64,000 nucleotides of DNA from assembly GCF_007644045.2 (NCBI RefSeq), contig NZ_VMDW02000075.1, positions 1-64,000 of the forward strand, read 5' to 3'. Position numbers and translations under genes: made by a program. The first letter of the stretch is position 1, and each line of letters starts with the position of its first letter. Positions 240 to 60,599 of this stretch are shown piece after piece. Below the pieces are notes generated by a model. It searched no databases, was not told where the DNA came from, and worked only from the letters and a program-made list of their open reading frames with translations. The stretch is from Vogesella urethralis (GTDB lineage Bacteria > Pseudomonadota > Gammaproteobacteria > Burkholderiales > Chromobacteriaceae).

Positions 240-1076
240 ATGTCGGTAGGGCATTACGAAAACTTTCCGGTAGGGTCCATCCTGTTGCCGCGGCGCATGC
301 GCCGGGCGGTGCACGCTATCTACCATTTTGCCCGCTACGCCGACGATATTGCCGACGAGGGCGATGCGCAGCCGGCAGAACGGTTGGCCGCACTGCAGGC
401 GCTGCGCGACGAGCTGGGCCGCATCGAGGCCGGGCAGGCGCCGCAAACCGCGCTGATGCAGCGGCTGGCGGCGGTGATTGCCGAGTACCGGCTGCCGCTG
501 GCGCCGTTTTACGATCTGTTGTCGGCGTTCAGCCAGGACGTGGAGAAAACCCGCTACCAGAATTTTGCCGAGTTGGTGGACTACTGCCGCCGTTCGGCCA
601 ATCCGGTGGGGCGGCTGATGCTGCACCTGTACGGCGAGCACGACCCGAAAAGCGTGGCGATGTCGGACGGTATCTGCACCGCGCTGCAGCTGATCAACTT
701 CTGGCAGGACGTGGCGGTGGACTGGAGCAAAGGCCGCGTCTACATTCCGCAAGACGACCTGGCGCGGTTTCGCATTGGCGAGGCGCAGATTGCCGCCCGC
801 GACGCCGGCGGCGTGTGGCCGATGCTGATGGACAAGGAAGTGAAGCGCGCGCTGGCCATGCTGGAGGCGGGCTCGCCACTGGGGCTGAAACTGAAGGGCC
901 GCCTGGGGCTGGAGCTGCGCCTGATCATCCTGGGCGGCGAGCGCATACTGAAAAAGATTCACGATGCCCGTGGCGATGTGCTGACGCAGCGCCCGGTGCT
1001 GGTGTGGAAAGACTGGCTGTACATGGTATGGAAGGCACTGACCGTACCGTACGCCACCAAGAGGAGGCGGGCGTGA
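240..1076 (+). CDS. hpnC: Squalene synthase-like HpnC (hydroxysqualene synthase)
   Basis: This is a 278-residue trans-isoprenyl diphosphate synthase-like protein. It has the first Asp-rich motif (D35, D36, D39 in DDIADE) and a second one, QDVAVD (D157, D161), both of which coordinate Mg2+ and diphosphate in the squalene/phytoene synthase family. In the bacterial HpnCDE route, HpnC converts presqualene diphosphate made by HpnD to hydroxysqualene in the cytosol or at the membrane. It is the first gene of a tight three-gene operon; its stop codon overlaps the hpnD start by 4 bases. The identification rests on motifs and on the C-D-E order, which is typical of hopanoid or squalene producers. A squalene-hopene cyclase gene is not in the window, so the end product is unknown. 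Confidence 0.9.
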   Translation: MSVGHYENFPVGSILLPRRMRRAVHAIYHFARYADDIADEGDAQPAERLAALQALRDELGRIEAGQAPQTALMQRLAAVIAEYRLPLAPFYDLLSAFSQDVEKTRYQNFAELVDYCRRSANPVGRLMLHLYGEHDPKSVAMSDGICTALQLINFWQDVAVDWSKGRVYIPQDDLARFRIGEAQIAARDAGGVWPMLMDKEVKRALAMLEAGSPLGLKLKGRLGLELRLIILGGERILKKIHDARGDVLTQRPVLVWKDWLYMVWKALTVPYATKRRRA

Positions 1077-1918: not shown

Positions 1919-3213
1919 CCCCGCGCGTTGCCATTATCGGTGCCGGCTGGGCCGGCTTGTCGGCGGCCGTGGCGCTGGCGCCGGCGGCCAACCTGGTACT
2001 GTATGAAGCCGGCAAGGTGGCCGGTGGCCGCGCCCGCCGCGTCGAGCTGGACGGCATGGCGCTGGATAATGGCCAGCACATCCTGATCGGCGCCTACCGC
2101 GACACCCTGCAGCTGCTGCGTACCGTCGGCGTGGACCCGGCGGCACAGTTGGCCGCACAGCCGCTGGCGTGGCTGCAGGTAGACGGCATGGCCATGCGCT
2201 GCCCGGACTGGCCGGCGCCGCTGCACCTGCTGGCCGGGCTGCTGAGCGCGCGTGGCCTGCGCTGGCGCGACAAGCTGGCCATGCTGCGGCTGTTGACTTG
2301 GCTCAGGTGGCAAGGCTGGAAAATCGGGCAAGATGCGCCGGCTTTGGCCTGGCTAGCCGCCCACGGCCAGAGCGAGGCGCTGCTGCAGCGCTTCTGGACG
2401 CCGCTGATTCTGGCTACGCTCAACACCCCGCCGGTGCAAGCCTCCATGCAGTTGCTGGCCAATGTGCTGCGCGACAGCCTGGGTGCGCCGGCGGCCGACG
2501 CCAGCCGCCTGCTGCTGCCGCGCTGCGACCTGGGCCGCCTGCTGGTGGACCCGGCGCTGCAATGGTTGGCCGCACGCGGCGCCGACATCCGCTTGGGGCA
2601 CCGTGTCGCCGAGCTTGCGCCACAACCGGATGGTAGCTGGCGGGTGGACGGCGACGCCTTCGACGCCGTGGTGGTGGCGGTGGCGCCGTACCACGCTGGC
2701 GCATTGCTGGACCACGCGCCGTTGCAGGCCTTGCTCAAGGGCTGGCAATACCAGCCGATAAGCACCGTATACCTGCAATTCGAGGGCAGGGTGCGTTTGC
2801 CGGCGGTGATGACCGGCCAGGCTTACGGCTGCGGCCAGTGGTGGTTCGACCGCCAGGCGCTCAGTGGCGAGCCGGGGTTGGTGTCGGTGGTGATCAGTGC
2901 GCAAGGGGCGCACGACACGCTGACGCGCGACGCGCTGCGCGAGCAGCTGCTGGCGGAAATGCGTCGCCATGTGCCGGATTTGCCCCCGCTGAAAGCCAGC
3001 TGGCAGATCACCGAGCAGCGCGCCACCTTTGCGGCCAACGTGGGCTTGCCGCGCCCGGACGTGCGTCTTGGCGTAGAATCCGCTTATCTTGCGGGCGACT
3101 GGCTGTGCGCCGATTACCCGGCCACGCTGGAAGGTGCCGTACGCAGCGGCATCGTGGCTGCCCGAACCCTCATGCAGGACTGGACTAAAAAGAATGATGG
3201 AAACCTTCGATAA
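1915..3213 (+). CDS. hpnE: Hydroxysqualene reductase HpnE (FAD amine-oxidase family)
   Basis: This is a 432-residue flavoprotein that in the known route reduces hydroxysqualene to squalene, completing the HpnCDE pathway. The N-terminus carries the dinucleotide-binding motif GAGWAG, followed by an acidic residue at the end of the second strand (LYEAGKVAGGRARR), typical of amine oxidase/phytoene desaturase-like enzymes. The C-terminal segment AGDWLCADYPATLEGAVRSG is the second FAD-binding block of this family. I use the rare start TTG at 1915 because it makes a TTGA overlap with the hpnD stop and puts the Rossmann motif four residues from the N-terminus. No in-frame ATG occurs before that motif. 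The gene's end overlaps the next gene by about 20 bases. Confidence 0.9.
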   Translation: MTPRVAIIGAGWAGLSAAVALAPAANLVLYEAGKVAGGRARRVELDGMALDNGQHILIGAYRDTLQLLRTVGVDPAAQLAAQPLAWLQVDGMAMRCPDWPAPLHLLAGLLSARGLRWRDKLAMLRLLTWLRWQGWKIGQDAPALAWLAAHGQSEALLQRFWTPLILATLNTPPVQASMQLLANVLRDSLGAPAADASRLLLPRCDLGRLLVDPALQWLAARGADIRLGHRVAELAPQPDGSWRVDGDAFDAVVVAVAPYHAGALLDHAPLQALLKGWQYQPISTVYLQFEGRVRLPAVMTGQAYGCGQWWFDRQALSGEPGLVSVVISAQGAHDTLTRDALREQLLAEMRRHVPDLPPLKASWQITEQRATFAANVGLPRPDVRLGVESAYLAGDWLCADYPATLEGAVRSGIVAARTLMQDWTKKNDGNLR

Positions 3214-3949
3214 AGATTACCTGGCCGGCCGCGTGCTGTTGGTGACCGGCGCTACCCAGGGCATTGGCCGCGAAACCGCGCTGGCCGCTGCGGCGCATGG
3301 CGCCACCGTGGTATTGCTGGCGCGCAGCGTGAAGGGCCTGGAAAAAGTGTACGACGCCATCGTCGAGGCCGGTGGCCCGGAGCCGGTGGCCATTCCGCTG
3401 GATTTGCTTACCGCCAGCGACGACGACTTCAACACGCTGGCCTACCAGATCAAGCAGGCCGTGGGCCGCCTGGACGGCATCGTGCACTGTGCCGCGCATT
3501 TCTATGCGCTGTCGCCGCTGCGCGACCAGCGTATCGATGAATGGATGAACCAGTACCGCATCAACACGGTGGCGCCGTTTGCGCTGACCCGCGCCTGCCT
3601 GCCCTTGCTGGTAGAGGCGCCGGACGCCAGCGTGCTGTTTGTGGGTGAAACCCATGGCCTGCAGCCGGGGCCGTTCTGGGGCGCGTTTGGCGCGTCCAAG
3701 GCCGGTGTCAGCTACCTGGCCAGCGTGGCCGCGTCGGAGTGGGACGTGTTCCCCAATCTGCGCGTGAACCAGCTGGTGCCGGGCCCGGTCAATTCGCCGC
3801 AGCGTACCCGCACCCATCCGGGCGAGGCCAAAAACGAGCGCGGCGAGCTGGCCGACCTGATGCCGCACATGCTGTACTGGCTGGGTGCTGCCAGCCGTGG
3901 CCGCAGCGGTGAAACCACGGTGCTGGATCTGCGCAAGAAACTTGCATAA
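3194..3949 (+). CDS. YciK-like short-chain dehydrogenase lacking the catalytic Ser and Tyr
   Basis: This 251-residue protein has an SDR Rossmann fold: the cofactor motif TGATQGIG near residue 18, the structural Asn in RINTVAPF, and PGPVNSP after the last strand. The catalytic segment is unusual. Where classical SDRs have YxxxK, it reads FGASK, so the general-acid Tyr is F165 although K169 is kept; thirteen residues upstream, where the catalytic Ser should be, it has E152. The protein may therefore bind NAD(P)H without classical dehydrogenase activity, or use another chemistry. From memory, Neisseriales relatives look similar, so this may be a conserved subfamily and not decay. It overlaps the 3' end of hpnE, but a role in squalene synthesis is not implied. 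Confidence 0.8.
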   Translation: MMETFDKDYLAGRVLLVTGATQGIGRETALAAAAHGATVVLLARSVKGLEKVYDAIVEAGGPEPVAIPLDLLTASDDDFNTLAYQIKQAVGRLDGIVHCAAHFYALSPLRDQRIDEWMNQYRINTVAPFALTRACLPLLVEAPDASVLFVGETHGLQPGPFWGAFGASKAGVSYLASVAASEWDVFPNLRVNQLVPGPVNSPQRTRTHPGEAKNERGELADLMPHMLYWLGAASRGRSGETTVLDLRKKLA

Positions 3950-3958
3950 GGACAAGGG

Positions 3959-4624
3959 ATGCGGGCTTATCTGTTACTGCCGGCGTTGGCATTGCTGACG
4001 GGCTGCAACTGGGTGATGAACGTCAGCGGCCTGGCCGCCGAGTCGAACAAGGCGATCGGTGCGTCCTGCCGCCAGACCGGCCGTTCGCTCGAGGAGTGCT
4101 ATAACCGCAACCCGGATGCAGACAAGGCGCAGATTTTTGCCGGCTGGCGCGAAATGCACGAGTACATGAGCAAGAACAAGCTGGAAACGGTGGCGCCGCC
4201 GCCCGACCCGGTGCCACCGCCGGTGGCCGAGGCCGAGGCGTCGCAACCGGCCCCGGCCGAGCAGGCTCAAAAAAAAAGTGACCACGCCGTAGCCCCGGCC
4301 GCGCCGGCAGCCGCAGCCGCAGCCGAGCACGGTGCGGCTGCGGCTCATTCCCCGGCCGCCGCTGCACAAGCGGCGGTGCCGCAGGGCAAGCGCGTGCTGA
4401 CCAACGAAGAAGCCGAAGCGTTGGCCAAGAACGACCCGCTGATCGATTCCATCCTGTCTACCGTGCGCGGTGCCGAAAAGCAGGAGGGCGCCGCCAAAGG
4501 TGCCCCCAGTGCCACCGACAACCGCCTGCTGAACATCCTGAACGAGCTGGAGGCCGACAAGAACGCGCCGGCCGCCCCCGCCAAACCGGCCACCCCGGCG
4601 CCCAAGCCGGCGGCAGGCCACTGA
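3959..4624 (+). CDS. Putative lipoprotein with Ala/Pro-rich middle
   Basis: This is a 221-residue protein with a lipoprotein signal peptide (hydrophobic stretch ending in the lipobox LLTGC, Cys at residue 16). A short folded-looking segment follows, with two further cysteines (ASCRQTG and LEECYNR) and the motif IFAGWREMHEYM. About 60 residues of low-complexity Ala/Pro/Glu come next, then a conserved-looking helix (LTNEEAEALAKNDPLIDSIL), and the protein ends in a Pro/Ala tail. I do not recognise a functional domain. The linker could span the periplasm from an anchored N-terminus. It sits 9 bases after the SDR gene and 10 before radA, so it is probably in the same transcript. Confidence 0.75.
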   Translation: MRAYLLLPALALLTGCNWVMNVSGLAAESNKAIGASCRQTGRSLEECYNRNPDADKAQIFAGWREMHEYMSKNKLETVAPPPDPVPPPVAEAEASQPAPAEQAQKKSDHAVAPAAPAAAAAAEHGAAAAHSPAAAAQAAVPQGKRVLTNEEAEALAKNDPLIDSILSTVRGAEKQEGAAKGAPSATDNRLLNILNELEADKNAPAAPAKPATPAPKPAAGH

Positions 4625-4634
4625 TTTCCCCGAC

Positions 4635-6005
4635 ATGGCAAAAATCAAGACGCAGTACCAGTGCGGCGAGTGCGGTGGCACCTCGCCCAAGTGGCAGGGC
4701 CAGTGTCCGCATTGCGGCGCCTGGAACAGCCTGAGCGAAACCGTGGCCGCGCCGCCGGCTGCTGCGGCCAACGCCCGCTTCCAGAGCTGGACGGCGCAGA
4801 CGCAGCCGGTGCAGCAGCTGTCGCAAGTGCAGGCGGCCGAGGTGCCGCGCGAATCGTGCGGTATCGAAGAGCTGGACCGCGTGCTGGGCGGCGGCATCGT
4901 CAAGGGCGCCGTGGTGCTGCTGGGCGGCGACCCCGGCATCGGCAAGTCCACGCTGCTGTTGCAGGCGCTGGCCACCATCGGCAGCACCCGCAAGGTGCTG
5001 TACGTGTCGGGTGAGGAATCGCCGCAGCAGATCGCGCTGCGCGCCACCCGCTTGGCGGTGGACGCCAGCCGCGTGCGGCTGCTGTCCGAAATCCGGCTGG
5101 AGGCCATCATCCCCACGCTGCAGGCCGAAATGCCGGAAGTGGCGGTGATCGACTCCATCCAGACGCTGTATTCCGACCAAGTGACGTCGGCGCCAGGCTC
5201 GGTGTCGCAGGTGCGCGAGTGCGCGGCGCAGCTGACGCGCATTGCCAAGCAGAGCGGCATCACCATCATCCTGGTGGGCCACGTCACCAAAGAAGGCTCG
5301 CTGGCCGGGCCGCGCGTGCTGGAGCACATTGTCGATACCGTGCTGTACTTCGAGGGCGACAGCCACTCCAGTTACCGCATGATCCGCGCCATCAAGAACC
5401 GTTTTGGCGCGGCCAACGAGCTGGGCGTGTTCGCCATGACCGACCGTGGCCTGCGCGGCGTATCCAACCCGTCGGCCATCTTTTTGTCCAGCTACCGCGA
5501 CGACGTGTCCGGCTCCTGCGTGCTGGTGACGCAAGAGGGCAGCCGGCCGCTGCTGGTGGAAATCCAGGCGCTGGTGGACGACGCGCACGGCTTTCAGCCC
5601 AAGCGCCTCAGCGTGGGCCTGGAACAAAACCGGCTGGCCATGCTGATGGCGGTATTGAACCGCCACGCCAGCATTGCCTGCTTCGACCAGGACGTGTTCC
5701 TGAACGCGGTAGGCGGGGTGAAGATCAACGAGCCGGCGGCCGACCTGGCAGTCATTCTGGCCATGGTGTCGTCGCTGAGGAACAAGCCGCTGCCGGAAAA
5801 GCTGGTGGTATTCGGCGAAGTGGGCCTGTCCGGCGAGGTGCGGCCGGTAACACGTGGCCAGGAACGCCTGAAAGAGGCGGCCAAGCTGGGCTTTACCCGC
5901 GCCATCGTGCCGGCGGCCAACAAGCCGCGGCAGGATATCGATGGCCTGGAAGTGATTGCCGTGGAGCGGCTGTCTGAGGCCGTCGATTATTGTGTGCGCC
6001 GTTAG
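4635..6005 (+). CDS. radA: DNA repair protein RadA (Sms)
   Basis: This 456-residue protein has the full RadA architecture. An N-terminal zinc finger uses C10, C13, C24 and C27. A RecA-like ATPase follows, with Walker A GGDPGIGKST at residues 97-106, a Walker B strand (VAVIDSIQT) and the RadA-specific KNRFG motif. The C-terminal Lon-like domain carries the sequence GGVKINEPAADLA. In known bacteria RadA is a hexameric DnaB-like motor that extends D-loops in recombination and natural transformation. That is notable here because the window also carries a candidate uptake-sequence motif. Length and all key motifs are normal. Confidence 0.97.
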   Translation: MAKIKTQYQCGECGGTSPKWQGQCPHCGAWNSLSETVAAPPAAAANARFQSWTAQTQPVQQLSQVQAAEVPRESCGIEELDRVLGGGIVKGAVVLLGGDPGIGKSTLLLQALATIGSTRKVLYVSGEESPQQIALRATRLAVDASRVRLLSEIRLEAIIPTLQAEMPEVAVIDSIQTLYSDQVTSAPGSVSQVRECAAQLTRIAKQSGITIILVGHVTKEGSLAGPRVLEHIVDTVLYFEGDSHSSYRMIRAIKNRFGAANELGVFAMTDRGLRGVSNPSAIFLSSYRDDVSGSCVLVTQEGSRPLLVEIQALVDDAHGFQPKRLSVGLEQNRLAMLMAVLNRHASIACFDQDVFLNAVGGVKINEPAADLAVILAMVSSLRNKPLPEKLVVFGEVGLSGEVRPVTRGQERLKEAAKLGFTRAIVPAANKPRQDIDGLEVIAVERLSEAVDYCVRR

Positions 6006-6012
6006 GATCGCC

Positions 6013-6576
6013 ATGACCATTACCCCGCAACAGATCGAAGCCGAACGCCCCTACTTGCTGCGCTATGCGCGGGCGCAGCTGCAAGACCAGGCCGCCGCCG
6101 AAGACGCGGTGCAGGACGCGCTGCTGGCGGCGCTGGAAGGGCAGGCGCGCTTTGCCGGCCAATCCAGCGTGCGCACTTGGCTCACGTCCATCCTGCGTTT
6201 CAAACTGGTGGATGTCATTCGCCGTCAGGGGCGCGAGCAGGCTACCGACCTGAGCGAAGACACCGACTTGTCCGACCTGGACGGCCTGTTCGATGGCCAT
6301 GGCGCCTGGCAGCAGGCGGTGCGCGCCTGGGGCGTGCCGGAGGAGGGCTTGCTGGCCAAGCAGTTCTGGCAGGTGTACCAGCAGTGCGCGCAGGCGATGC
6401 CCAAACGCACGGCGATGGTGTTTGCCATGCGCGAGGTCATGGACATGGACATCGCCGAGATTTGTCAGAATTTATCGATTACGGCGACTAACTGTTCGGT
6501 AATGTTGTACCGCGCACGCATGAGCCTGCGCGAATGCCTGGAGACGCGCTGGTTTCAGCAGGAGGTAGCCCGATGA
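6013..6576 (+). CDS. ECF-like sigma-70 family factor
   Basis: This 187-residue protein has sigma region 2 (ARAQLQDQAAAEDAVQDALLAAL, then the -10 recognition helix segment SSVRTWLTSILRFKLVDVIRR) and sigma region 4 (MPKRTAMVFAMREVMDMDIAEICQNL, then a helix-turn-helix ending NCSVMLYRARMSLRECL). It lacks regions 1 and 3, as extracytoplasmic-function sigma factors do. The stop codon overlaps the start of a small zinc-finger anti-sigma gene, the usual arrangement for a sigma/anti-sigma pair. The stimulus and regulon cannot be read from the sequence. The gene follows radA by 7 bases and could be part of that transcript. The ATG at 6013 gives a normal region 2 start. Confidence 0.88.
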   Translation: MTITPQQIEAERPYLLRYARAQLQDQAAAEDAVQDALLAALEGQARFAGQSSVRTWLTSILRFKLVDVIRRQGREQATDLSEDTDLSDLDGLFDGHGAWQQAVRAWGVPEEGLLAKQFWQVYQQCAQAMPKRTAMVFAMREVMDMDIAEICQNLSITATNCSVMLYRARMSLRECLETRWFQQEVAR

Positions 6577-6749
6577 TGATGAATTGCCAGCAGGCTAGCC
6601 GCCTGATTTCGGATGGCATGGACCGCCCGCTGACACGTAGCGAACAGGTGCGCTTGTCGTTTCACCTGCTGATGTGTCGCAACTGCCGCCACTTCCGCCA
6701 GCAGCTGCAGCAGTTGCGCCAGGGCATTCGCCGCGCCCGCGACGAGTAG
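6573..6749 (+). CDS. Small zf-HC2 anti-sigma factor
   Basis: This is a 58-residue protein containing the zinc-binding anti-sigma signature HLLMCRNC (H-x3-C-x2-C), with an additional Cys near the N-terminus (NCQQ). It has no transmembrane segment, so it is a cytoplasmic anti-sigma factor and not a membrane-anchored one. The first of three consecutive ATGs (6573) overlaps the sigma-factor stop as ATGA; a GGAGG sequence lies 9 bases upstream. The likely role is to hold the upstream sigma factor inactive until zinc is lost or the thiols are oxidised. That redox idea is inferred from characterised ZAS proteins. Confidence 0.82.
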   Translation: MMMNCQQASRLISDGMDRPLTRSEQVRLSFHLLMCRNCRHFRQQLQQLRQGIRRARDE

Positions 6750-6783
6750 GCGCAGGCGGCATGTGGCCGCAGACGATGCCCCG

Positions 6784-6819
6784 AAAAAGACGGCCAGCGC
6801 GCTACCCGCCGCTGGCCGT
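6784..6819 (-). terminator. Rho-independent terminator of the DUF2325 gene
   Basis: On the minus strand, ACGGCCAGCG and CGCTGGCCGT form a 10-bp stem around a 10-base loop, followed one base later by five T residues (AAAAA at 6784-6788 on the plus strand). It lies about 75 bases beyond the stop of the minus-strand gene ending at 6895. It may also stop transcripts arriving from the anti-sigma gene. Confidence 0.75.
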
Positions 6820-6894
6820 ATCACATGAAGAGGAAGCGATCGTCCGCGTACGGACACGGTCGGGCCGGGCAGGGCCGGCCCTGGGGTAACTTGA

Positions 6895-7257: not shown

Positions 7258-7298
7258 GTTGCGACTCCTGCATTGGTGAATTCGATGCGTGGATGATA

Positions 7299-7340: not shown

Positions 7341-7428
7341 TTTGTGACTGTCGCGCAAATATGACATTGGTCGTGATGGTGCCGCCTGTGTCGGTTTTGT
7401 CCGACTTTGTAGCAGGGTTGATGTTGAA

Positions 7429-53150: not shown

Positions 53151-53194
53151 GCCGGTTTTCTTTGCAAGGGGGCGCCCGCACAGGGTGAAGCAAG

Positions 53195-54364
53195 ATGCAG
53201 AACATGCCACAGCATGGCGACGTAGTGATTGTGGGCGGCGGCCCGGTGGGCGCATTGGCCGCGCTGCGGCTGGCACAGGCCGGGCGCGACGTGATTCTGG
53301 TGGAGGCGCGGGCGCAGCGCGAGCCTGTGCGCGACGCGCGGGCGCTGGCGCTATCGTGGTATAGCCGCGAACAGCTGGCGCTGGCCGGTGCCTGGCCTGA
53401 CAGCCTGCCAGCCACGGTGATCGACACCGTGCACGTGTCGCAGCAGGGCGGCTTTGGCCGCACCGTGCTGCAGCATGACGACCTGGGGCTGCCGCATCTG
53501 GGCGCCGTTATCGACTACCCGGTGCTGACTGCCGCATTGGCCGACGCGCTGGCTGCGTCCGGCGTGAAGGTGTTGTGGCAAACGCGGGTGGAAGGCGCTC
53601 AGTCGCTGTCGCGCTACGCCACGCTAAGCCTGCGCACGGCGGATGATGCGGTGGCCACGCTGACCTGCCGCCTGCTGGTGCTGGCCGAGGGCGGCGCGTT
53701 GGCCGAGCGCCTGCCGGGCATTACCCGCCGCGTACACGATTACCGCCAGAGTGCGGTGCTGGCTGAGGTCAGCAGCAGCCAGCCGCACGGCAATGTGGCT
53801 TACGAGCGCTTTGGCTCTGAAGGCCCGTTTGCCTTGCTGCCGCACGGCGAGCGCATGATGCTGGTGTGGACGCGCAGCCACGACGACGCGCAGCGCCTGA
53901 AGGAAGCTGACGACGCCAGCGTGCTGGCCGAACTGCAGCAGGCTTTTGGCGAGCGGCTGGGGCGTTTTGACAGCATTGGCGAGCGTGCCGTGTTCCCGCT
54001 GGCGTTGCGTCAGCTCAATCGCGTGGTGTCCGGCCGTGTGGTGATGATCGGCAACGCGGCGCAAACCATGCATCCGGTGGCGGCGCAGGGCTTCAACCTG
54101 GGCTTGCGCGACGCGGTGGGGCTGGTGGACGCGCTGGCCGGTGCGGCCGACCCGGGCGATGCGGCTGTGCTGCGCCGTTACAGCGCCGGGCGCCGCGTTG
54201 ATAGCCACGCGGTGGTGGGCTTTACCCACGGCCTGATCCAGTTGTTTGATGGCCATCATCCGCTGGTAAAAGCCTTGCGCGGTGTCGGCATGAGCGCGCT
54301 GGACGCGCTACCGCCGGCGCGCCGTGCGTTTGCCAGCCACCTGGTGTTTGGCGTCGGCGTCTAG
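53195..54364 (+). CDS. ubiH: UbiH-like FAD monooxygenase
   Basis: This 389-residue flavin hydroxylase has the dinucleotide-binding motif VVIVGGGPVGALAALRLAQAG, the UbiH/COQ6-type middle motif (LAEGG), and the second FAD motif VVMIGNAAQTMHPVAAQGFNLGLRDA. By position after pepP it is the likely UbiH, which hydroxylates the ubiquinone ring precursor, but regiochemistry cannot be read from the sequence. The next gene, in the same direction, is a paralogue. Confidence 0.82.
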   Translation: MQNMPQHGDVVIVGGGPVGALAALRLAQAGRDVILVEARAQREPVRDARALALSWYSREQLALAGAWPDSLPATVIDTVHVSQQGGFGRTVLQHDDLGLPHLGAVIDYPVLTAALADALAASGVKVLWQTRVEGAQSLSRYATLSLRTADDAVATLTCRLLVLAEGGALAERLPGITRRVHDYRQSAVLAEVSSSQPHGNVAYERFGSEGPFALLPHGERMMLVWTRSHDDAQRLKEADDASVLAELQQAFGERLGRFDSIGERAVFPLALRQLNRVVSGRVVMIGNAAQTMHPVAAQGFNLGLRDAVGLVDALAGAADPGDAAVLRRYSAGRRVDSHAVVGFTHGLIQLFDGHHPLVKALRGVGMSALDALPPARRAFASHLVFGVGV

Positions 54365-54379
54365 CAATGACGGTTTTCT

Positions 54380-54410
54380 TGCGGCCAACCTTCGGTTAAG
54401 GTTGGCCGCA
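54380..54410. repeat. Perfect inverted pair of uptake-like motifs (stem-loop)
   Basis: TGCGGCCAACCTT and AAGGTTGGCCGCA, separated by CGGTT, form a perfect 13-bp stem with a 5-base loop. It lies between the two hydroxylase genes and has no T-run. Each arm is an exact copy of the extended repeat. Confidence 0.9.
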
Positions 54411-54430
54411 GTCATGTCAGAAAGCAGAAA

Positions 54431-55585
54431 ATGAACGAGCATTACGATGTGCTGGTGGTGGGCGGTGGCCTGGTGGGCGCCGCGCTGGCGCTGGCGCTGG
54501 ACAAACAGGGCCGGCGTGTGGCCTTGCTGGAAGGGCAGGGCGAGCCGCTGGACGGCCTGGAGCAGGGCTGGGACGCCCGCGTCTACGCCGTTAGCCCGGC
54601 TAACCGGGCGTGGCTGGCCGGGCTGGGTGCCTGGCCCGATATGGCGCGCATTGGCACCATCACCGCGATGGACGTGTGTGGCGACCAGGGCGGGCGCATT
54701 GCGTTTTCCGCCGAGGATGCCGGGGCCCAGGCACTGGCGTGGATCGTGGAAAACCGCTGGTTGCTGGCGGCGCTGTGGCAGCAACTGCAGCAGGCCAGTG
54801 GTGTGACCATCCTGCGTGGACAGCGGCCGCAAGCGCTGTGGCACGGCCCGCGCGAAGCCGGCGTGGTGCTGGCTGACGGCAGCAAACTGACGGCTGCGCT
54901 GGTGGTGGGGGCAGACGGGGCGAACTCCTGGGTGCGGCAGCAGAGCGGCATTGCGGCCAACGTCAAACCCTATGGCCACAGCGGCGTGGTTGCCAACTTT
55001 GCCTGCGAGCGGCCGCACGGCGACATCGCACGGCAATGGTTTCTGGGTGACGGCATCCTGGCGTGGTTGCCGCTGCCGGGCAACCGCATCAGCATGGTGT
55101 GGTCTACCAGCCAGCCGCAGCCGTTGCTGGCGCTGGATGATGCGCGGCTGGCTGCCGTGGTGGCCGATGCCGGTGGCCCCGCGCTGGGGCGCCTGGAGGT
55201 CTTGACCCCGGCGGCGGCCTTCCCGCTGCGCCTGATCACGCCGGAGCAGGTGATTGCCGAGCGCGTGGCGCTGGTGGGTGATGCGGCGCATACCGTGCAC
55301 CCGCTGGCCGGGCAGGGCGTGAACTTGGGCTTTCAGGATGCGGCCCGGTTGGCCGCAGCGCTGCACGGGCGCGACGACTGCGGCCAGTGGCTGGCGCTGC
55401 GGGCGTATGAACGAAGCCGCAAAGAGGCTGTCCGAACCATGCAGATTACTTGTGATACCTTGTTTGGCCTATTCCACGACAAGGGCACGCCGGGTCTGGC
55501 CTGGTTGCGTAATACCGGGCTGAACCTCACCAACCGCCTGCCGTTGATCAAGCGGCAACTCGCCCGCCACGCGGTGGGTTTTTGA
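54431..55585 (+). CDS. UbiF/UbiI/VisC-family FAD monooxygenase
   Basis: This 384-residue flavin hydroxylase, a paralogue of the preceding gene, has the motif VLVVGGGLVGAALALALDKQG and the FAD motif VALVGDAAHTVHPLAGQGVNLGFQDAARL. It probably hydroxylates another carbon of the ubiquinone ring. The E. coli pepP-ubiH-ubiI order supports UbiI-like function, but UbiF or UbiM cannot be excluded. A hairpin of repeat motifs separates it from ubiH. Confidence 0.83.
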   Translation: MNEHYDVLVVGGGLVGAALALALDKQGRRVALLEGQGEPLDGLEQGWDARVYAVSPANRAWLAGLGAWPDMARIGTITAMDVCGDQGGRIAFSAEDAGAQALAWIVENRWLLAALWQQLQQASGVTILRGQRPQALWHGPREAGVVLADGSKLTAALVVGADGANSWVRQQSGIAANVKPYGHSGVVANFACERPHGDIARQWFLGDGILAWLPLPGNRISMVWSTSQPQPLLALDDARLAAVVADAGGPALGRLEVLTPAAAFPLRLITPEQVIAERVALVGDAAHTVHPLAGQGVNLGFQDAARLAAALHGRDDCGQWLALRAYERSRKEAVRTMQITCDTLFGLFHDKGTPGLAWLRNTGLNLTNRLPLIKRQLARHAVGF

Positions 55586-55608
55586 GCAGAATTCAATAAA
55601 GGATGAGC

Positions 55609-56367
55609 ATGTCTTTCCGTTTCCGCCAGCTGGTGCTGGCCACCATGATGCTGCCGCTGATGGCGTGCAGTGCTTCCGCCGCCGATGAGTCCAGCGATGC
55701 CGTCAAAGCTGCCTTCAAGGGCAAGTTCCCGCAGCACGAGGTATCGACCGTGCAGCCGGCGCCGGTAGCAGGCCTGTACGAGGTGGTGGTGAAGATGAAG
55801 CGCGGTGGTCGCGAAGAGTTCACCATCGTCTACGTGGACGGCAAAGTGGACCACCTGATTACCGGCGACCTGATCGATACCAAGTCGCGCCGCAGCCTGA
55901 CCGAAGCCCGTCTGGATGACCTGAACAAGGTGGTGGTGGACTGGAAAACCCTGCCGCTGGACAAGGCCATCAAGGAAGTGCGTGGCAAGGGCGAGCGCAA
56001 GCTGGTGGTGTTCTCTGACCCGGACTGCCCGTACTGCAAGCAGCTGGAGCGCGAGTCGCTGGCCAAGCTGGATAACGTCACCGTTTACACCTTCCTGTAC
56101 CCGCTGGCGCAGCTGCACCCGGATGCCGAGCGCAAGTCGCGCCTGATTTGGTGCAGCAAGGACCCTGCCAAGACCTGGACCGCATTCATGCGTAACGGCA
56201 CCCCGCTGAGTGGCAAGGATAACTGCCCGACCCCGCTGGCCGAAGTGGCTGCCATCGGTGAAAAGCTGGGTATCAGTGGTACGCCGGCGTTGATCTTCCC
56301 GAATGGCACGCTGGTGCCCGGCGCCATCCCGCTGGCGACCATCGAGGAAAATCTGGCTGCCAAGTAA
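55609..56367 (+). CDS. dsbC: Disulfide isomerase DsbC
   Basis: This 252-residue periplasmic protein has an export signal (VLATMMLPLMACSASAA), an N-terminal dimerisation domain, a linker helix and a thioredoxin fold with active site C140-P-Y-C143 and the cis-Pro loop GTPAL. E. coli DsbC has CGYC; the CPYC variant here is compatible with isomerase function. The sequence PLMAC is also a possible lipobox, so membrane attachment is open. I use ATG 55609, which has an AAAGGA ribosome-binding site five bases upstream; the ATG at 55603 would overlap it. Confidence 0.9.
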   Translation: MSFRFRQLVLATMMLPLMACSASAADESSDAVKAAFKGKFPQHEVSTVQPAPVAGLYEVVVKMKRGGREEFTIVYVDGKVDHLITGDLIDTKSRRSLTEARLDDLNKVVVDWKTLPLDKAIKEVRGKGERKLVVFSDPDCPYCKQLERESLAKLDNVTVYTFLYPLAQLHPDAERKSRLIWCSKDPAKTWTAFMRNGTPLSGKDNCPTPLAEVAAIGEKLGISGTPALIFPNGTLVPGAIPLATIEENLAAK

Positions 56368-56370
56368 GCC

Positions 56371-56955
56371 ATGCAGCTGTTACCGCGCACACCTGCCGAG
56401 CGCCTGCTGTGTAGTGCCTTGCTGGCGCTGGCCTGTCATCTGGGCCTGCTATTGCTGCTGGATGCCTTGCCACCGGCGGCTGGTGGTGCAGCAGGGCTGA
56501 TGGTGCGGTTGCAGGCTGCGCCACCAGCCAAGGCCTCATTAGTCGCCCCGGAAAAGGTGGTAGCCGCTGCCGGGCTGTCAGCAGAGGCTGTTGCACCGCC
56601 GGCGGCACAGCAGGCGGCGGTTACCGCACCTGATGCAGCCCCAGCGGCGAATACCGTGGCGCCGGCTTTGGCGATGGCGCGCTTTTTTAGCGCCAACGAG
56701 CTGGATGTGCTGGCCGAACCATTGCAGCCTATCGTGTTACCCGAAACCGACGACTTGCCGGCTGATGTGCGTTTGCAGGTTTACATTGATGCCAGCGGGC
56801 ATGTGGTGCGGGTGACAGTGCCGACAGATCTGCCGGAAGCGTACGCTGAAGCCATCCGCCAGCGCTTTTATGCGGCCAGCTTTACCCCGGCGCGCAAGGC
56901 GGGGCAGCCGGTGGCGAGTGTGAAGCAGATAGCGCTGGATACCGAAGACTTGTGA
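56371..56955 (+). CDS. TonB-like protein with weak C-terminal domain
   Basis: This 194-residue protein has an N-terminal membrane anchor (LLCSALLALACHLGLLLLLDAL), an Ala/Pro-rich periplasmic linker and a C-terminal domain with the pattern of TonB_C/TonB-like domains (ADVRLQVYIDASGHVVRVTV, then EAIRQRFYAASFTPARKAGQPVASVKQI). It is shorter than typical TonB, and ExbB and ExbD are not adjacent. It may be a minor energy transducer for the siderophore receptors or an unrelated envelope protein. It starts 4 bases after dsbC. Confidence 0.65.
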   Translation: MQLLPRTPAERLLCSALLALACHLGLLLLLDALPPAAGGAAGLMVRLQAAPPAKASLVAPEKVVAAAGLSAEAVAPPAAQQAAVTAPDAAPAANTVAPALAMARFFSANELDVLAEPLQPIVLPETDDLPADVRLQVYIDASGHVVRVTVPTDLPEAYAEAIRQRFYAASFTPARKAGQPVASVKQIALDTEDL

Positions 56956-57060
56956 AACGATCGTTTCATGGTAAATTGACGCCAGCCAGATGGATATGGC
57001 GGCTAACAACACATGAACTGATGTTGCGAAGCAACACCACAGAATCGAAAAGGAAAAACA

Positions 57061-57318
57061 ATGTCCGATCTGAAAACCCTGTTCGAGCAAGCGCAGAAAG
57101 ACGTGACCAGCCTGGCCGAGCGCCCGGACAACCAGACCTTGCTGCAACTTTATGCCCTGTATAAACAGGCAACTGACGGCGATGTGCAGGGCGAACGCCC
57201 TGGTATGATGGATTTCATCAACCGCGCCAAGTATGACGCCTGGGCCAAGTTGCAAGGCCAGTCTGCCGACGAGGCAATGCAAGGCTACGTTGATGTTGTC
57301 AAGCAGTTGATGGCCTGA
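57061..57318 (+). CDS. Acyl-CoA-binding protein (ACBP)
   Basis: This 85-residue four-helix protein matches ACBP: LKTLFEQAQKDVTSLAERPDNQTLLQLYALYKQATDGDV, then GMMDFINRAKYDAWAKLQGQSADEAMQGYVDVVKQL. The Tyr/Lys residues of the helix-2 YALYKQAT motif and the KYDAWAKLQG motif bind the CoA head in known proteins. It buffers long-chain acyl-CoA in the cytosol. ACBP is scattered in bacteria. An AAAGGAAAA ribosome-binding site precedes it. Confidence 0.93.
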   Translation: MSDLKTLFEQAQKDVTSLAERPDNQTLLQLYALYKQATDGDVQGERPGMMDFINRAKYDAWAKLQGQSADEAMQGYVDVVKQLMA

Positions 57319-57430
57319 AGCGAATTTAACAAATTCTTAGCAGGATGACGGCTGACTTTTTCGTTGTTACGCTTCATAATGCAAAAGGTTGATCTAGACA
57401 ACCGATTGCATTTTATTTTTGGGAGCCCAA

Positions 57431-57733
57431 ATGATGAAGAAAACCCTGATGACTGCCCTGATGCTGGCTGTTGTTTCTAGCGCCGCTCTGGCGCAAGGTG
57501 CTGGTGCTGGTGCTGGTACTGGTACTGGTGCTGGTACTGGTGCCGCTGGTGCTGGTGCTGGTGCTGGTGCTGGTGCTGGTGCCGCTGGTGCCGCTGGTGC
57601 CGCTGGTGCAGTTGGTGGCATTGCTGGTATTTCTGCTGCCGGCCTTGCTACTGCTGCTGCGGTTGCTGTCGGTATCGGTGCAACATCCTCCAGCAATGCC
57701 GCTGCAACACACCACGCTACCACCAATCATTAA
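57431..57733 (+). CDS. Small exported Gly-Ala repeat protein (YjbE/GfcA-like position)
   Basis: This 100-residue protein has a signal peptide (LMTALMLAVVSSAALA), then a region almost wholly Gly/Ala/Thr built from a 6-base tandem repeat, and then a hydrophobic Ala/Val segment and a Ser/His tail. It is the first gene of the polysaccharide locus and sits where E. coli has the small Gly/Ala/Thr-rich exported proteins YjbE and GfcA. A ribosome-binding site (GGGAG) lies 5 bases upstream. The function is unknown; similarity to YjbE is by composition and position, not by alignment. A terminator-like hairpin follows. Confidence 0.7.
   Translation: MMKKTLMTALMLAVVSSAALAQGAGAGAGTGTGAGTGAAGAGAGAGAGAGAAGAAGAAGAVGGIAGISAAGLATAAAVAVGIGATSSSNAAATHHATTNH
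57499..57609 (+). repeat. GGTGCT hexamer tandem repeat inside the Gly-Ala protein gene
   Basis: About 18 imperfect hexamers of GGTGCT/GGTACT/GGTGCC run in tandem. Gain or loss of whole hexamers would change the length of the protein without shifting the frame. The repeat opens spurious frames (Val-Leu on the same strand, Ser-Thr on the other). Confidence 0.85.
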
Positions 57734-57750
57734 TCGGTACGCGTCGCAAA

Positions 57751-57781
57751 AGCTGCCTCGATTATCGAGGTAGCTTTTTTT
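57751..57781 (+). terminator. Hairpin terminator between the repeat protein and the YjbH-PAP2 gene
   Basis: AGCTGCCTCGA and TCGAGGTAGCT pair with one mismatch around TTA and are followed by seven T residues. It may lower expression of the downstream export genes relative to the small protein. Confidence 0.75.
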
Positions 57782-57803
57782 GTGTCCTCCTCCCGGAAGT
57801 TCT

Positions 57804-60599
57804 ATGCGCCTCAGTCCCATCGCGTTCGCCGTGTTTTGTGTGTTGCAACCCGCATTTGCCGCCTCGTCGATGACGGGGCAGGCCGGCATACTCAATATGC
57901 CCGATGGCAGGGTGGAAGAGGATGGTACCTTTGCCTTGGGTTATACTTTTGATCGGCCTTACAGTACGCTGTGGACTAATCTGACGGTATTACCGTTCTT
58001 GCAGATGAATGGTCGCTTTGTCGCCATTCGTGGCACCCCGGGCTTTGACAATGCCAAGCTGGCGGCGTCTTATGGTAGTTACAAAGACAAAGTCATCGAC
58101 CTCAAGCTGCGCCTGCTGCAGGAAGGTCAGTACTTGCCCGAGGTATCATTCGGCAAGACGGATTTGTTGGGTACACAGTTGTTCGATGGACAGTACATTG
58201 CGGCCTCCAAACGTTTGGGGCCGGTGGACGCCACGCTGGGCTACGGTTCCGGCAAGATTCAAGGGCTCTTTGGCGGCATTAACTGGCGTTTGCCCTACGA
58301 TGATGGTGCTTGGTCATTACTGGCCGAGTACGATGCCAATAATTACAAAAGCCACTTTCGCGCCGCCGAAACATTTGCGGGCCAGCGTGAGGCTGGCCCC
58401 GTAGTTGGCCTGTCGTACCGCTTTGGTTGGTTGACTACCACGTTGGCAAGAAGCAAGAGCCACAGCAGCATCAGCACCAATTTCTCTGCACCATTCCAGC
58501 AAAAAGAATTCATTCCCAAGTTTCTTGAGCCGGCCCCGTACAGCGCCTTGCGCGAACGACCTACTGCTCAAGCTTGGCGTGACAGTCCAACGCACCGCCA
58601 GGAACTGGTGGCTGCCTTGCACAAGCAGGATTACCGTGGCGTCAAGGTGGCTTACCACAATGGCGTTTTCACTCTGGCGCTCAGCAATACTCGCATTGCA
58701 GACCAGGGGCGTGCTGTTGGCCGTGCTGTTCGCACAGCAATGTATTTCGCCCCCTTGGAAACCCGCGTCATCAAAATCCGGCTCAATCGTGAAGATATTG
58801 CCATCGCTGATTACGAATTCTTCAATGTAGCCGTGCTGAATGACTATCTGAATGGAAAAGCCAGCCGCCAGCAATTGAGGGATGTGACGCTGGTGAGCCA
58901 TGCAGCACCCACTATGGCAACCGATGATTTTGATGCCGTTTCGGCAGATCTGGAGCAGGGCATCGATGTGGCTGTGGTGTCGAATGAAGACGGCAATACC
59001 TACCAGCTAAAGGGCCGGGATGCCCAGTTCAACAGCTTCGGCATCGCACCTAAGCTTTCCATGTTTTTCAATGACCCGTCCGGGGCGTTTCGCTACGAAA
59101 TTTTCGCCTTGGCCAGTGGCAGCTGGCGGCCGGCCAATGGCAATTACTTTGACGCTGGGTTCAAGCAGAAGCTGGTAGAGGATGTCAGCAAGGTAGAAAA
59201 CCCGTCCAATAGCTTGCTACCTCATGTGCGGACCGATATCGCCGAATACAAGCGCGTCAATACCCCAAAGCTCAATCAGCTTTCCTATACCTATGTCATG
59301 CAGCCGGCGGAGCGCACTTATGCCAAGCTGTCAGTAGGTTTGTTTGAGGAAATGTACCGAGGCGTTGCCGGGCAATTGGTTTATTTTGCGCCAGGCTCGC
59401 GTTGGATCGGTGAACTGTCGACCGAGGCGGTTGAGCAGCGCGACTTCAAGGGCTGGTTCGGCAAGCGCGATTACAAGACAGTGACTGGCCTCGCTTCCTT
59501 GCATTACAAACTGCCAGAAGGCATCACGGCGACTGCGCGCGCCGGCCGCTTCCTGGCCAAGGATAGTGGCGTGCGCTTCGAGTTCAAGCGTCGTTTCAAG
59601 AGTGGTATTGAGGCTGGTGCCTGGTATACCATCACCGATGGCAAGGATACGACCTCGCCAGGTACCCCTTCCAGTCCTTACCATGATAAAGGGGTTTTTC
59701 TGAGTATCCCGCTCAATACCCTGACGCCGACCGATACCCAGTCGGTTGGTCACTACTCGCTGTCCCCCTGGACGCGGGATGTGGGGCAGCAGGTTGGCGT
59801 GCCACACGACTTGGTCAGAATGCTGGAAGAATCGGAGCGCCAGTTGTCGCTTGGCGACGGCTTGGGGGAATTTGGTGATCGTCGCGAAGCGGATTCACCA
59901 GATGTACTACCAGATCCCGTATGGTGGCCCAGCGCCTCGGGTGTCAAGCTCCGGGTAGGTGGTGCTGCGGCCAACTTGCCGGACATCGGTAGCGCGGCAG
60001 TTGCATCGAGCGTAGGTATTGCTGCAGTAGGGTTGGCCGCAACGAGAGACAAGAGCATCCAGCAGCAGTTTGGCAAGCGCCAAGGCAATGCGGTGGTCAA
60101 GGCCTGGGATAAGGTTGGTAAATGGGCGCCGCTGGCCGCGGTGGGCGCTGCCGGTGTGGGCATGACCCTTGCGGATGATCCAGTGCTGGTGAATACCAGC
60201 ATCATCAGTTTACAATCGGCAGGGTTAGCCGCCGGTTTATCGATAGCGACCAAGAAGCTGGTTGACCGTGCGCGCCCCGAAGACAGTGGCGGTAAAACAT
60301 GGGCTACTGCAAACAAACAGTCTGCCAGCTTCCCGTCGAATCACAGTGCCGTCACCATGGCTGTACTGACGCCTTATGCTGAGGAGTATCAGTTGCCTTG
60401 GCTTTATGTTGCGGGCGGGCTGGCGAATGCCGGTCGGGTGGCTGGTAACAAGCACTGGATGTCCGATGTAGTGGCCGGTAGTTTGCTCGGTTATGCAGTC
60501 GGGTATCAGTTATGGAAAGGGCAGCGGGATGCGGTCCTGATGCCGACAGCCAGCGCGGATGGAAAGTCCCTGGCGTTGACTTTGCACAAACAGTATTGA
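57804..60599 (+). CDS. YjbH/GfcD-like outer-membrane protein fused to a PAP2 phosphatase domain
   Basis: This is a 931-residue protein. A signal peptide (IAFAVFCVLQPAFA) is followed by about 690 residues of YjbH-type sequence, starting SSMTGQAGILNMPDGRVEEDGTF and containing repeated beta-rich segments (SYRFGWLTTTLARS, YTYVMQPAERTYAKLSVGLFEEMYRGV). A Gly/Ala-rich hydrophobic linker leads to a PAP2 domain (about 735-910) with all three phosphatase motifs: K817-x6-R824-P825, P844-S-N-H847 and R878-x5-H884-x3-D888. In E. coli YjbH/GfcD are outer-membrane proteins of polysaccharide export, and PAP2 enzymes dephosphorylate lipid phosphates or pyrophosphates. The start is ATG 57804 with GGAAG upstream; the TTG at 57780 lies within the preceding terminator and is unlikely. 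Confidence 0.85.
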   Translation: MRLSPIAFAVFCVLQPAFAASSMTGQAGILNMPDGRVEEDGTFALGYTFDRPYSTLWTNLTVLPFLQMNGRFVAIRGTPGFDNAKLAASYGSYKDKVIDLKLRLLQEGQYLPEVSFGKTDLLGTQLFDGQYIAASKRLGPVDATLGYGSGKIQGLFGGINWRLPYDDGAWSLLAEYDANNYKSHFRAAETFAGQREAGPVVGLSYRFGWLTTTLARSKSHSSISTNFSAPFQQKEFIPKFLEPAPYSALRERPTAQAWRDSPTHRQELVAALHKQDYRGVKVAYHNGVFTLALSNTRIADQGRAVGRAVRTAMYFAPLETRVIKIRLNREDIAIADYEFFNVAVLNDYLNGKASRQQLRDVTLVSHAAPTMATDDFDAVSADLEQGIDVAVVSNEDGNTYQLKGRDAQFNSFGIAPKLSMFFNDPSGAFRYEIFALASGSWRPANGNYFDAGFKQKLVEDVSKVENPSNSLLPHVRTDIAEYKRVNTPKLNQLSYTYVMQPAERTYAKLSVGLFEEMYRGVAGQLVYFAPGSRWIGELSTEAVEQRDFKGWFGKRDYKTVTGLASLHYKLPEGITATARAGRFLAKDSGVRFEFKRRFKSGIEAGAWYTITDGKDTTSPGTPSSPYHDKGVFLSIPLNTLTPTDTQSVGHYSLSPWTRDVGQQVGVPHDLVRMLEESERQLSLGDGLGEFGDRREADSPDVLPDPVWWPSASGVKLRVGGAAANLPDIGSAAVASSVGIAAVGLAATRDKSIQQQFGKRQGNAVVKAWDKVGKWAPLAAVGAAGVGMTLADDPVLVNTSIISLQSAGLAAGLSIATKKLVDRARPEDSGGKTWATANKQSASFPSNHSAVTMAVLTPYAEEYQLPWLYVAGGLANAGRVAGNKHWMSDVVAGSLLGYAVGYQLWKGQRDAVLMPTASADGKSLALTLHKQY

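Follow-up and report, generated by a model that had tools for sequence, protein, structure and literature searches.

What is the 11-base word GGTTGGCCGCA that recurs throughout this stretch of Vogesella DNA, and is it a DNA uptake sequence (DUS), as the original prediction proposed? We counted 21 exact copies in the window (the whole stretch of DNA that was analysed, 64,000 nucleotides), 12 on the plus and 9 on the minus strand, and every coordinate and strand that had been read by eye proved correct. In 100 dinucleotide shuffles the expectation was 0.14 copies per window with a maximum of 2, in line with the earlier estimate of less than one. AA or AG preceded 10 of the 21 copies, so that the 'about half' given earlier for an A[AG] prefix was right. 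The copies of the 11-mer are thus real, but the true unit is slightly different. Its core is the 9-base GTTGGCCGC, found 60 times in the window (21 of these within the 11-mers), with A favoured at +10 and A, A and G favoured at -3, -2 and -1. The 11-mer should give way to the frame AG-GTTGGCCGCA, with +10 relaxed in the source genome. The sites in the window are as follows.

382..392, plus strand: exact 11-mer GGTTGGCCGCA, inside the called gene 204-962
2564..2574, plus strand: DUS-like 11-mer, exact match
9648..9658, minus strand: DUS-like 11-mer, exact match, intergenic by gene calls
12619..12629, minus strand: DUS-like 11-mer, exact match
12960..12970, plus strand: DUS-like 11-mer, exact match
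14719..14729, plus strand: DUS-like 11-mer, exact match
18795..18805, minus strand: DUS-like 11-mer, exact match, intergenic by gene calls
20686..20696, plus strand: DUS-like 11-mer, exact match
23225..23235, minus strand: DUS-like 11-mer, exact match
31946..31956, plus strand: DUS-like 11-mer, exact match
33222..33232, plus strand: DUS-like 11-mer, exact match
33417..33427, plus strand: DUS-like 11-mer, exact match
34037..34047, minus strand: DUS-like 11-mer, exact match
35801..35811, minus strand: DUS-like 11-mer, exact match
36080..36090, minus strand: DUS-like 11-mer, exact match
40010..40020, plus strand: DUS-like 11-mer, exact match
43971..43981, minus strand: DUS-like 11-mer, exact match
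54380..54410, minus (54380-54390) and plus (54400-54410): inverted pair of the 11-mer between the called genes 53195-54364 and 54431-55585, hairpin fold
55347..55357, plus strand: DUS-like 11-mer, exact match
60031..60041, plus strand: DUS-like 11-mer, exact match
1984..59975, both strands: 39 further exact 9-base cores GTTGGCCGC, some of which will be chance copies (first base in plus coordinates, then strand): 1984-, 2148+, 3031-, 4764-, 5409-, 5913-, 7637-, 8651-, 10222-, 11127+, 12312+, 16624-, 18160+, 19778-, 22424-, 24493+, 27176-, 28884+, 29002+, 31331-, 33345-, 35671-, 36120-, 37154-, 38843-, 39281-, 40811+, 41220-, 43564+, 44658+, 44961+, 46842-, 48058+, 48771+, 50551-, 51783+, 52569-, 54953-, 59967-

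We observed 1,169 copies of the 11-mer in the whole source genome (G000; Vogesella, Chromobacteriaceae), split 584/585 by strand, against 4 of the reversed word used as a control, and the excess is thus genome-wide. All 13 Vogesella genomes carried 1,141-1,510 copies, while the 48 genomes of nine other genera had 1-22 each. The 9-base core was present 425 times (42 expected) in a 464-kb sample of the source genome, which also served for the codon shuffles below. A contig search with AroB as the query gave related loci, and at 8/8 loci of Vogesella and its nearest relatives the 10-mer GTTGGCCGCA occurred 9-16 times per 14-21 kb. Between species, the word was kept more often than other 10-mers in 28/28 comparisons among the eight loci, which are not independent of one another (in one example, 10/11 were kept as against 0.354 for other 10-mers).

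A bias in codons, dicodons or peptides might produce such a word where GC content is high, and most copies of the 10-mer do lie within called genes (143/220 in the source genome and 192/290 in G060, a closed Vogesella chromosome). However, synonymous-codon shuffles within called genes (60 for each genome) gave a mean of 7.8 copies and a maximum of 14 where the sample of the source genome had 144, and a mean of 7.2 and a maximum of 13 where G060 had 192. The density of the 10-mer was also about 5-fold (source genome) and 3-fold (G060) higher outside genes than inside, the word occurred on either strand and in each of the six frame classes (although unevenly), and relatives of similar GC content have few copies. 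Codon or protein bias had been called a poor explanation from the window alone; with these numbers we consider its probability negligible.

The word is also exact. The 27 one-base changes at +1 to +9 (of 30 possible for the 10-mer) were nearly absent, with 0-11 copies each against 220 exact copies in the source genome, and 0-13 against 290 in G060. At +10 the source genome was relaxed, with 220 A, 99 G, 94 C and 12 T, and G060 was strict, with 290 A, 20 G, 14 C and 5 T.

Short exact copies in the hundreds to thousands across a chromosome would also fit a chromosome-maintenance word (Chi, KOPS, a nucleoid-occlusion or a condensation site), read by a DNA-bound protein of the cell rather than by an uptake receptor. 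Chi and KOPS are, like the Vogesella word, short, abundant and chromosome-wide, but they are strand-polar. When we assigned strands from the GC skew in 20 stretches of G060, no replication-strand bias was seen (150 copies on the G-rich strand, 140 on the other), in keeping with the mixed orientation, unlike that of Chi or KOPS, remarked on in the original prediction. The adjacent dyads and inverted pairs at gene ends, the variation of +9/+10 between genera, and the in-register likeness to Neisseria DUS (all described below) also speak against a maintenance word. Its absence from genera nested among carriers would be hard to explain for such a site, and we regard this reading as quite improbable.

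The sites were densest at convergent gene ends. Convergent intergenic regions had 3.77 sites per kb in the source genome and 4.87 in G060, tandem ones 1.69 and 1.86, and divergent ones 0.79 and 0.63. Inverted pairs were present in 11 (source genome) and 20 (G060) intergenic regions, with none in divergent ones, and adjacent dyads of the word also occurred; the original prediction had named inverted pairs near gene ends as a trait of the DUS of Neisseriaceae. This clustering, and the strong hairpin formed by the one inverted pair that we folded (positions 54370-54430, -28.8 kcal/mol, z -5.6), would suit a dispersed mobile or REP-type element, or a plain terminator stem. However, most copies lie in genes, and beyond about -4/+13 (within about 4 bases of the 10-mer on each side) the flanks carry little more information than background, and therefore no longer element is being copied. 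We consider such an origin highly improbable; use as a terminator would be at most a secondary role.

We also looked for the word in other Chromobacteriaceae. Sister words, GTTGGCCGAA or GTTGGCCGAG, were present in 10/48 genomes of other genera at 238-2,223 copies; GTTGGCCGAA was carried by g6, g7, g9, Pseudogulbenkiania and G010, and GTTGGCCGAG by g5. In a sample of the order outside the family, 0/386 genomes had more than 223 copies of GTTGGCCGMR, and six Vogesella genomes in the same survey had 2,164-3,107. The word dialects follow the species tree: on an RpoB tree of 30 genomes, the labels required 8 changes (shuffled mean 15.4; as low in 0/200 shuffles). The four GCA rows formed one clade, as did the two GAG rows, while the eight GAA rows did not (5 changes). 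Word-free genera were nested among the carriers. No other word was seen in samples of these genera (100 kb for g2 and g4, 140 kb for g3, 160 kb for g8), in which an unrelated word of low density could have gone unnoticed. As a positive control, the same k-mer method found the simDUS word AGGCTGCCTGAA in Stenoxybacter (39 copies against 0.11). Two candidate words were rejected. TTTACCCTGATCGA in g4 was a sampling artefact: the stretches taken were rich in pilin genes, and most of its copies encode the prepilin motif. GGACTGGCTG in Chromobacterium (14 copies against 0.83 in 140 kb) was judged from its contexts to be a peptide word, and could spell a tripeptide (GAC-TGG-CTG).

The Neisseriaceae combine DUS with a ComP receptor, in the dialects AT-DUS, AG-DUS, mucDUS, simDUS, kingDUS, king3DUS, eikDUS and wadDUS (PMC3630211). 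We found that AGGTTGGCCGAA is in register with mucDUS and simDUS at 9/12 bases (shuffle P 0.0037 on the same strand, 0.0057 on either), while the Vogesella and g5 words match published dialects at 8/12 (P 0.016-0.034). The two systems share a length of about 12 bases, a weakly conserved A-G lead-in of two bases, and a 3' GAA. Both have more than a thousand exact copies with few degenerate ones and one main word per lineage, and place them on either strand, inside genes as well as at their ends, with inverted pairs and dyads; both have a ComP-type minor pilin. They differ in the core, where +6 to +8 is CCG here and CTG there, and +5 is G here; +10 is G in one genus here and relaxed in the source genome. 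CTG was reported for all eight dialects, and as invariant and essential in Neisseria (PMC3630211, PMC12061091, PMC7371117). We found CCG in every word, and the form with T at +7 had 6 copies in the source genome and 4 in G060, against 220 and 290.

The Chromobacteriaceae could also have evolved an uptake sequence of their own, independent of that in Neisseria and similar to it by chance. This is compatible with an uptake role, and contests the common origin only. The lack of a common CTG core is in its favour, as are the limited match (at most 9/12 bases, at the P values above) and the absence of any such word from samples of Chitinimonas (162 kb) and Andreprevotia (115 kb). The ComP-type pilin in both families, the equal length, the A-G lead-in and the 3' GAA argue against it, as does king3DUS, described with a change parallel to the +9 A to C of Vogesella (PMC3630211). 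On balance we consider an independent origin unlikely.

The uptake signal sequence (USS) of Pasteurellaceae was compared by inspection only. It shares the logic of self-specific uptake and a short word in many copies, and its core is AAGTGCGGT; a core of this type is unrelated to the Vogesella word. The receptor proposed for the USS is a PpdA/ComN-type pilin different from ComP (PMC12616744).

The source genome appears to encode a ComP-type minor pilin. The predicted orthologue (G000:C46:60833-61255:-) had 2nba, 2m3k and 5hz7 as its top three PDB matches, and the profile of its globular domain scored 69.3, 68.0 and 64.4 bits against them, with the next pilin at 37.5. The PDB names 2m3k and 5hz7 as ComP and 2nba only as a 'prepilin-type protein', which we take to be N. 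subflava ComP. As a control, the PilE-like pilin of the source genome had PilE as its best match and did not match any of the three entries at E <= 0.01. With the full-length Vogesella ComP profile, PilA/PilE chains ranked among the ComP chains. L031, which had the best score to PF16732 (ComP_DUS), was PilE-like and L032 was taken instead. PF16732 was above the cut-off in 60/61 family genomes, and was rejected as a marker of DUS genomes because nearly everything matches it. ComEC was above the cut-off in 57/61 family genomes, the source genome among them; no such match was found in the Vogesella genomes G058 and G059, or in G019 and G045, where the gene is in pieces.

Together, the abundance, strand symmetry, codon independence, scarce variants, inverted pairs, sister words, DUS likeness and ComP orthologue favour the uptake reading. 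The CCG core and the ComP-like pilins of word-free genomes (below) complicate it, and the uneven frame use, the poor discrimination by PF16732 and by the full-length profile, and the missing ComEC matches also count against it. From these sequence features we conclude, with a probability of about 0.9, that GGTTGGCCGCA is the Vogesella dialect of a DUS-type uptake system like that of Neisseria, with a new core. ComP binding of the word, an uptake bias and a copy-maintaining drive are what we infer beyond this. Free DNA with the frame AG-GTTGGCCGCA would be preferentially bound by the globular domain of the ComP-type minor pilin on a type IV pilus. The pilus would retract and the DNA cross the outer membrane; ComEC would then pass one strand inward, to recombine into the chromosome. 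Since word-bearing DNA would be taken up at a higher rate, alleles that carry the word would also be copied at a higher rate into the population. Exact copies would therefore accumulate and stay, and one-mismatch forms would be swept out. Sites would settle where they are least harmful, as at gene ends, where inverted pairs may double as terminators.

The Vogesella word, DUS-like but with a different core, lies in a family reported to be without one. Frye et al. reported that five Chromobacteriaceae genomes lacked an obvious DUS and that ComP could not be identified in C. violaceum; Lutiella nitroferrum 2002 was also reported without an obvious DUS (PMC3630211). Lutiella nitroferrum 2002 is a name of Pseudogulbenkiania ferrooxidans. 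Our literature search (most subscription journals and preprints being outside its scope) found no uptake sequence described for Chromobacteriaceae, as the original prediction had stated, and no paper on natural transformation of Vogesella. In contrast to the published absence, the genome matched to P. ferrooxidans 2002 had 1,152 copies of GTTGGCCGAR, and a genome identified as C. violaceum was among the 26/38 word-free genomes with a candidate ComP-like pilin. As such pilins occur in word-free genomes, a ComP-like pilin alone is no predictor of the word.

Contrary to the published view, DUS-like uptake was probably ancestral in Chromobacteriaceae and was lost in Chromobacterium and others. We lean, with modest confidence, towards a fuller joint reading. 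DUS-directed uptake would predate the split of Neisseriaceae and Chromobacteriaceae, and the ancestral word of the latter would be AG-GTTGGCCGAA. As the two families differ at the core base +7 (T in Neisseriaceae, C in Chromobacteriaceae), the core specificity of the receptor would have switched once. The word would have been lost several times (in Craterilacuibacter, most of g2, Chromobacterium and g8) with the ComP-like pilin retained, there without the [YF]K and the N-[TVA]-D loop, which almost every word-bearing lineage has. If this is true, self-specific DNA uptake would have a greater age, a wider range and more losses than has been assumed. A core C for the supposedly essential T, read by orthologous receptors, would be a natural experiment on how ComP reads DNA, and from the words one can predict what DNA would be accepted by these genera.

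The loop residues would, in this joint reading, be candidate contacts for the word. The 26 word-free rows compared are candidates from 38 genomes, some of those from g8 being so divergent that their orthology is uncertain, and the link between residues and word is post hoc and underpowered (1 contrast on the starred branches of the RpoB tree, 3 on all branches). [YF]K was present in 21/23 word-bearing rows and 0/26 word-free rows, and N[TVAS]D in 22/23 and 1/26.

The original prediction had noted 21 copies of the 11-mer GGTTGGCCGCA in the window, with fewer than one expected by chance. We observed all 21 copies, each at its predicted position, against a computed expectation of 0.14. In the genome of Vogesella urethralis (G000; 4,028,666 bases, 157 contigs), the word occurred in 584 forward and 585 reverse copies, and the reversed control word in 4. 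The 10-mer GTTGGCCGCA was seen 220 times in a 464-kb sample of this genome (400 kb of stretches and the window), where a fourth-order Markov model predicts 8.3. Each form with one mismatch at +1 to +9 had 0-11 copies in G000 against 220 exact ones, and 0-13 against 290 in G060, a closed Vogesella chromosome. Flanking information lay chiefly at -4 to -1 and was weak at +11 to +13, so a longer repeat was rejected. The repeat unit is best written -2A -1G +1GTTGGCCGCA+10.

Position +10 was relaxed in the G000 sample (A 220, G 99, C 94, T 12) and strict in that of G060 (A 290, G 20, C 14, T 5). A dialect shift inside Vogesella is possible between these two genomes; their ComP proteins (the minor pilin that is the DNA uptake sequence (DUS) receptor in Neisseria) are 42% identical. 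We also observed seven 11-mers, one forward and six reverse, in 90 bases at G000:C28:74176-74265 (L084:14176-14265). The six reverse copies formed a head-to-tail array with a 12-base period, intergenic by our own gene calls.

Codon bias had been judged a poor explanation, and this held. Genes were called by our own hexamer-based script rather than by a standard gene finder. When synonymous codons were shuffled inside them, G000 gave a mean of 7.8 and a maximum of 14 words in 60 shuffles, against 144 observed. For G060 the corresponding values were 7.2 and 13, against 192; codon bias was therefore rejected. Density was 0.34 (G000) and 0.56 (G060) words per kb inside genes, and 1.67 and 1.70 outside them. 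Use of the frame classes within genes was uneven, ranging from 4 to 59 words per class in G000 and from 10 to 66 in G060. A strand skew tied to replication would have favoured a polarity role instead; the G-rich strand carried 150 copies and the other 140 in 20 stretches spread round the G060 chromosome (a count slightly too low, as L094 is partly masked), and replication polarity was rejected.

Among intergenic regions, convergent ones were the richest, with 3.77 (G000) and 4.87 (G060) words per kb, followed by tandem (1.69 and 1.86) and divergent ones (0.79 and 0.63). Inverted pairs, at most 40 bases apart, were found in 11 intergenic regions of G000 and 20 of G060, and in none of the divergent ones (0/49 and 0/46). 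One such pair lies in the window:

54380-54410, inverted pair, folding at -28.8 kcal/mol (z -5.6)

In 5-kb windows below 58% GC, we counted 1.60 cores (9-mers) in G000 (n=5) versus 4.78 elsewhere (n=87), and 1.67 words in G060 (n=3) versus 3.70 (n=77). Positions 56000-64000 of the window are low in GC, have few words and encode exopolysaccharide functions (a YjbH/PAP2 protein, a polysaccharide export protein and a GNVR chain-length protein); this segment was possibly acquired. In the G000 sample, the longest stretch without a core measured 8.5 kb (G000:C9:21513-29983, L067:1513-9983) and covers what we take to be a ribosomal-protein, secY and rpoA region.

We further estimated conservation between species. 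The named species closest by AroB were V. aquatica, V. indigofera, V. alkaliphila, V. margarita and V. fluminis. Compared by eye, their ComP proteins match those of G050, G052, G049, G054 and G051 respectively (for V. fluminis, from an internal start onward), which places the 13-genome genus as Vogesella, in the family Chromobacteriaceae of the order Neisseriales. In eight loci of 14-21 kb with AroB identity of at least 75%, words were conserved above other 10-mers in 28 of 28 pairwise comparisons (mutually dependent, with 3-16 words in each), for example 11/12 versus 0.389 and 10/11 versus 0.354; the lowest example was 1/6 versus 0.071. Comparisons with G000 itself involved small numbers and went in the same direction (e.g. 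3/4 versus 0.165 and 1/3 versus 0.075).

Across the family, GGTTGGCCGCA had 1,141-1,510 copies in 13 genomes of Vogesella and 1-22 in 48 genomes of nine other Chromobacteriaceae genera. A related word, GTTGGCCGAR, was carried by ten of the latter:

Copies of GTTGGCCGAR in its carriers
G034 2,017; G035 1,668; G036 744; G037 2,223; G038 1,258
G045 1,872; Pseudogulbenkiania ferrooxidans 1,152; P. subflava 942; G010 1,386
G047 238 (assembly 84% complete)

The remaining 38 non-Vogesella genomes had 26-93 copies (except G040 with 154 and G043 with 130), and Vogesella genomes 24-59. The word ends in AG in genus g5 and in AA in the other carriers. Since the C. luteus locus L186 held 11 GTTGGCCGAG in 20.9 kb, g5 is probably Crenobacter. 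The count in G047 was low beside its two congeners (1,152 and 942), perhaps reflecting ongoing erosion or poor assembly, given its incompleteness. G040 and G043 had two to four times the 37-78 copies of the four other genomes of their genus (g8), possibly relics of a lost word; 80 kb of samples gave no clear word. In G010, a second word, GTTTGCCGAA, occurred 19 times beside 41 of the main word GTTGGCCGAA in 100 kb (L256-L260), recalling the two dialects of Simonsiella as described in PMC3630211.

We also counted GTTGGCCGMR in 399 genomes sampled from the order; the 386 that lie outside the family had at most 223 copies each. Within the family, six Vogesella had 2,164-3,107, G010 had 1,442, G038 had 1,304 and five word-free genomes 72-109. 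Neither Chitinimonas (162 kb sampled) nor Andreprevotia (115 kb sampled) showed a similar word. The same method recovered AGGCTGCCTGAA (39 versus 0.11) in 77 kb of Stenoxybacter, presumably one of the Neisseriaceae.

When compared with eight reference DUS (king3 constructed from the description in PMC3630211 and wad taken as generally known), AGGTTGGCCGAA agreed in register with mucDUS and simDUS at 9 of 12 positions (P from shuffles 0.0037 on the same strand and 0.0057 on either), and the Vogesella and g5 words matched published DUS at 8 bases (P 0.016-0.034). The eight published dialects are described as all having CTG at +6 to +8 (PMC3630211; likewise PMC12061091, PMC7371117), whereas the Chromobacteriaceae words have CCG there. 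We therefore call the element DUS-like, its core being new, and do not count it as a ninth dialect of that set. The titles and abstract openings listed by our searches (few subscription journals, no preprints) yielded no published uptake sequence for Vogesella, Pseudogulbenkiania or other Chromobacteriaceae. The word may already stand, unrecognised, among the over-represented 10-mers for P. ferrooxidans in the supplement of PMC3630211.

The RpoB tree held 30 genomes, of which 27 belong to the family, and several of its deep branches were unstarred (under 95/80). In it, word-bearing g6, g5, Vogesella, g7 and Pseudogulbenkiania surround word-free g4, g8, g3 (taken as Chromobacterium, from G029) and most of g2, with G010 and g9 inside. 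Word presence needs at least four changes. The plainest reading is a single ancestral word, GTTGGCCGAA, that changed to GAG (g5) and GCA (Vogesella) and was lost several times.

The ComP-like minor pilin that the original prediction had proposed to look for has a candidate:

G000:C46:60833-61255, minus strand, 141-residue prepilin (best PDB matches 2nba, 2m3k, 5hz7)

Its neighbours presumably encode a fimT-like pilin, a TPR protein, aroB and msbA. Pfam ComP_DUS scored 35.8 bits on it; 2m3k and 5hz7 are named ComP in the PDB, and 2nba we take to be ComP of N. subflava. A profile of eight globular domains gave 69.3 (2nba), 68.0 (2m3k) and 64.4 bits (5hz7), with the next pilin at 37.5. A full-length Vogesella ComP profile intermixed ComP with PilA/PilE. 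For the PilE-like pilin of G000, the top match was PilE, and 2nba, 2m3k and 5hz7 were absent from its matches at E <= 0.01. Candidate ComP homologues were read in 26 of 38 word-free genomes. The candidate C. violaceum genome (G029, which we take to be ATCC 12472) has a ComP-like pilin with 2nba, 2m3k and 5hz7 on top, and no excess of either word (6 GGTTGGCCGCA, 59 GTTGGCCGAR). PMC3630211 did not find ComP in C. violaceum.

The pattern fits uptake mediated by ComP and biased toward word-bearing DNA, after which recombination would favour alleles with the word. The word, its dialects, its conservation, a putative ComP orthologue and ComEC (the inner-membrane DNA transporter) can be read from sequence; binding, uptake bias and drive we infer. 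Two Vogesella genomes (G058, G059) had no ComEC/Rec2 match above the cut-off, yet 1,194 and 1,284 words, pointing to either an assembly gap or recent loss.

ComP carried [YF]K in 21/23 word-bearing versus 0/26 word-free genomes, and N[TVAS]D in 22/23 versus 1/26. As this association was noticed post hoc and holds 1 to 3 independent contrasts, we offer it as a hypothesis only. In g9, two adjacent pilin genes lie at G045:C3:1518578-1519700 (L335); the second looks more ComP-like, with YR where YK would stand and no N-T-D loop.
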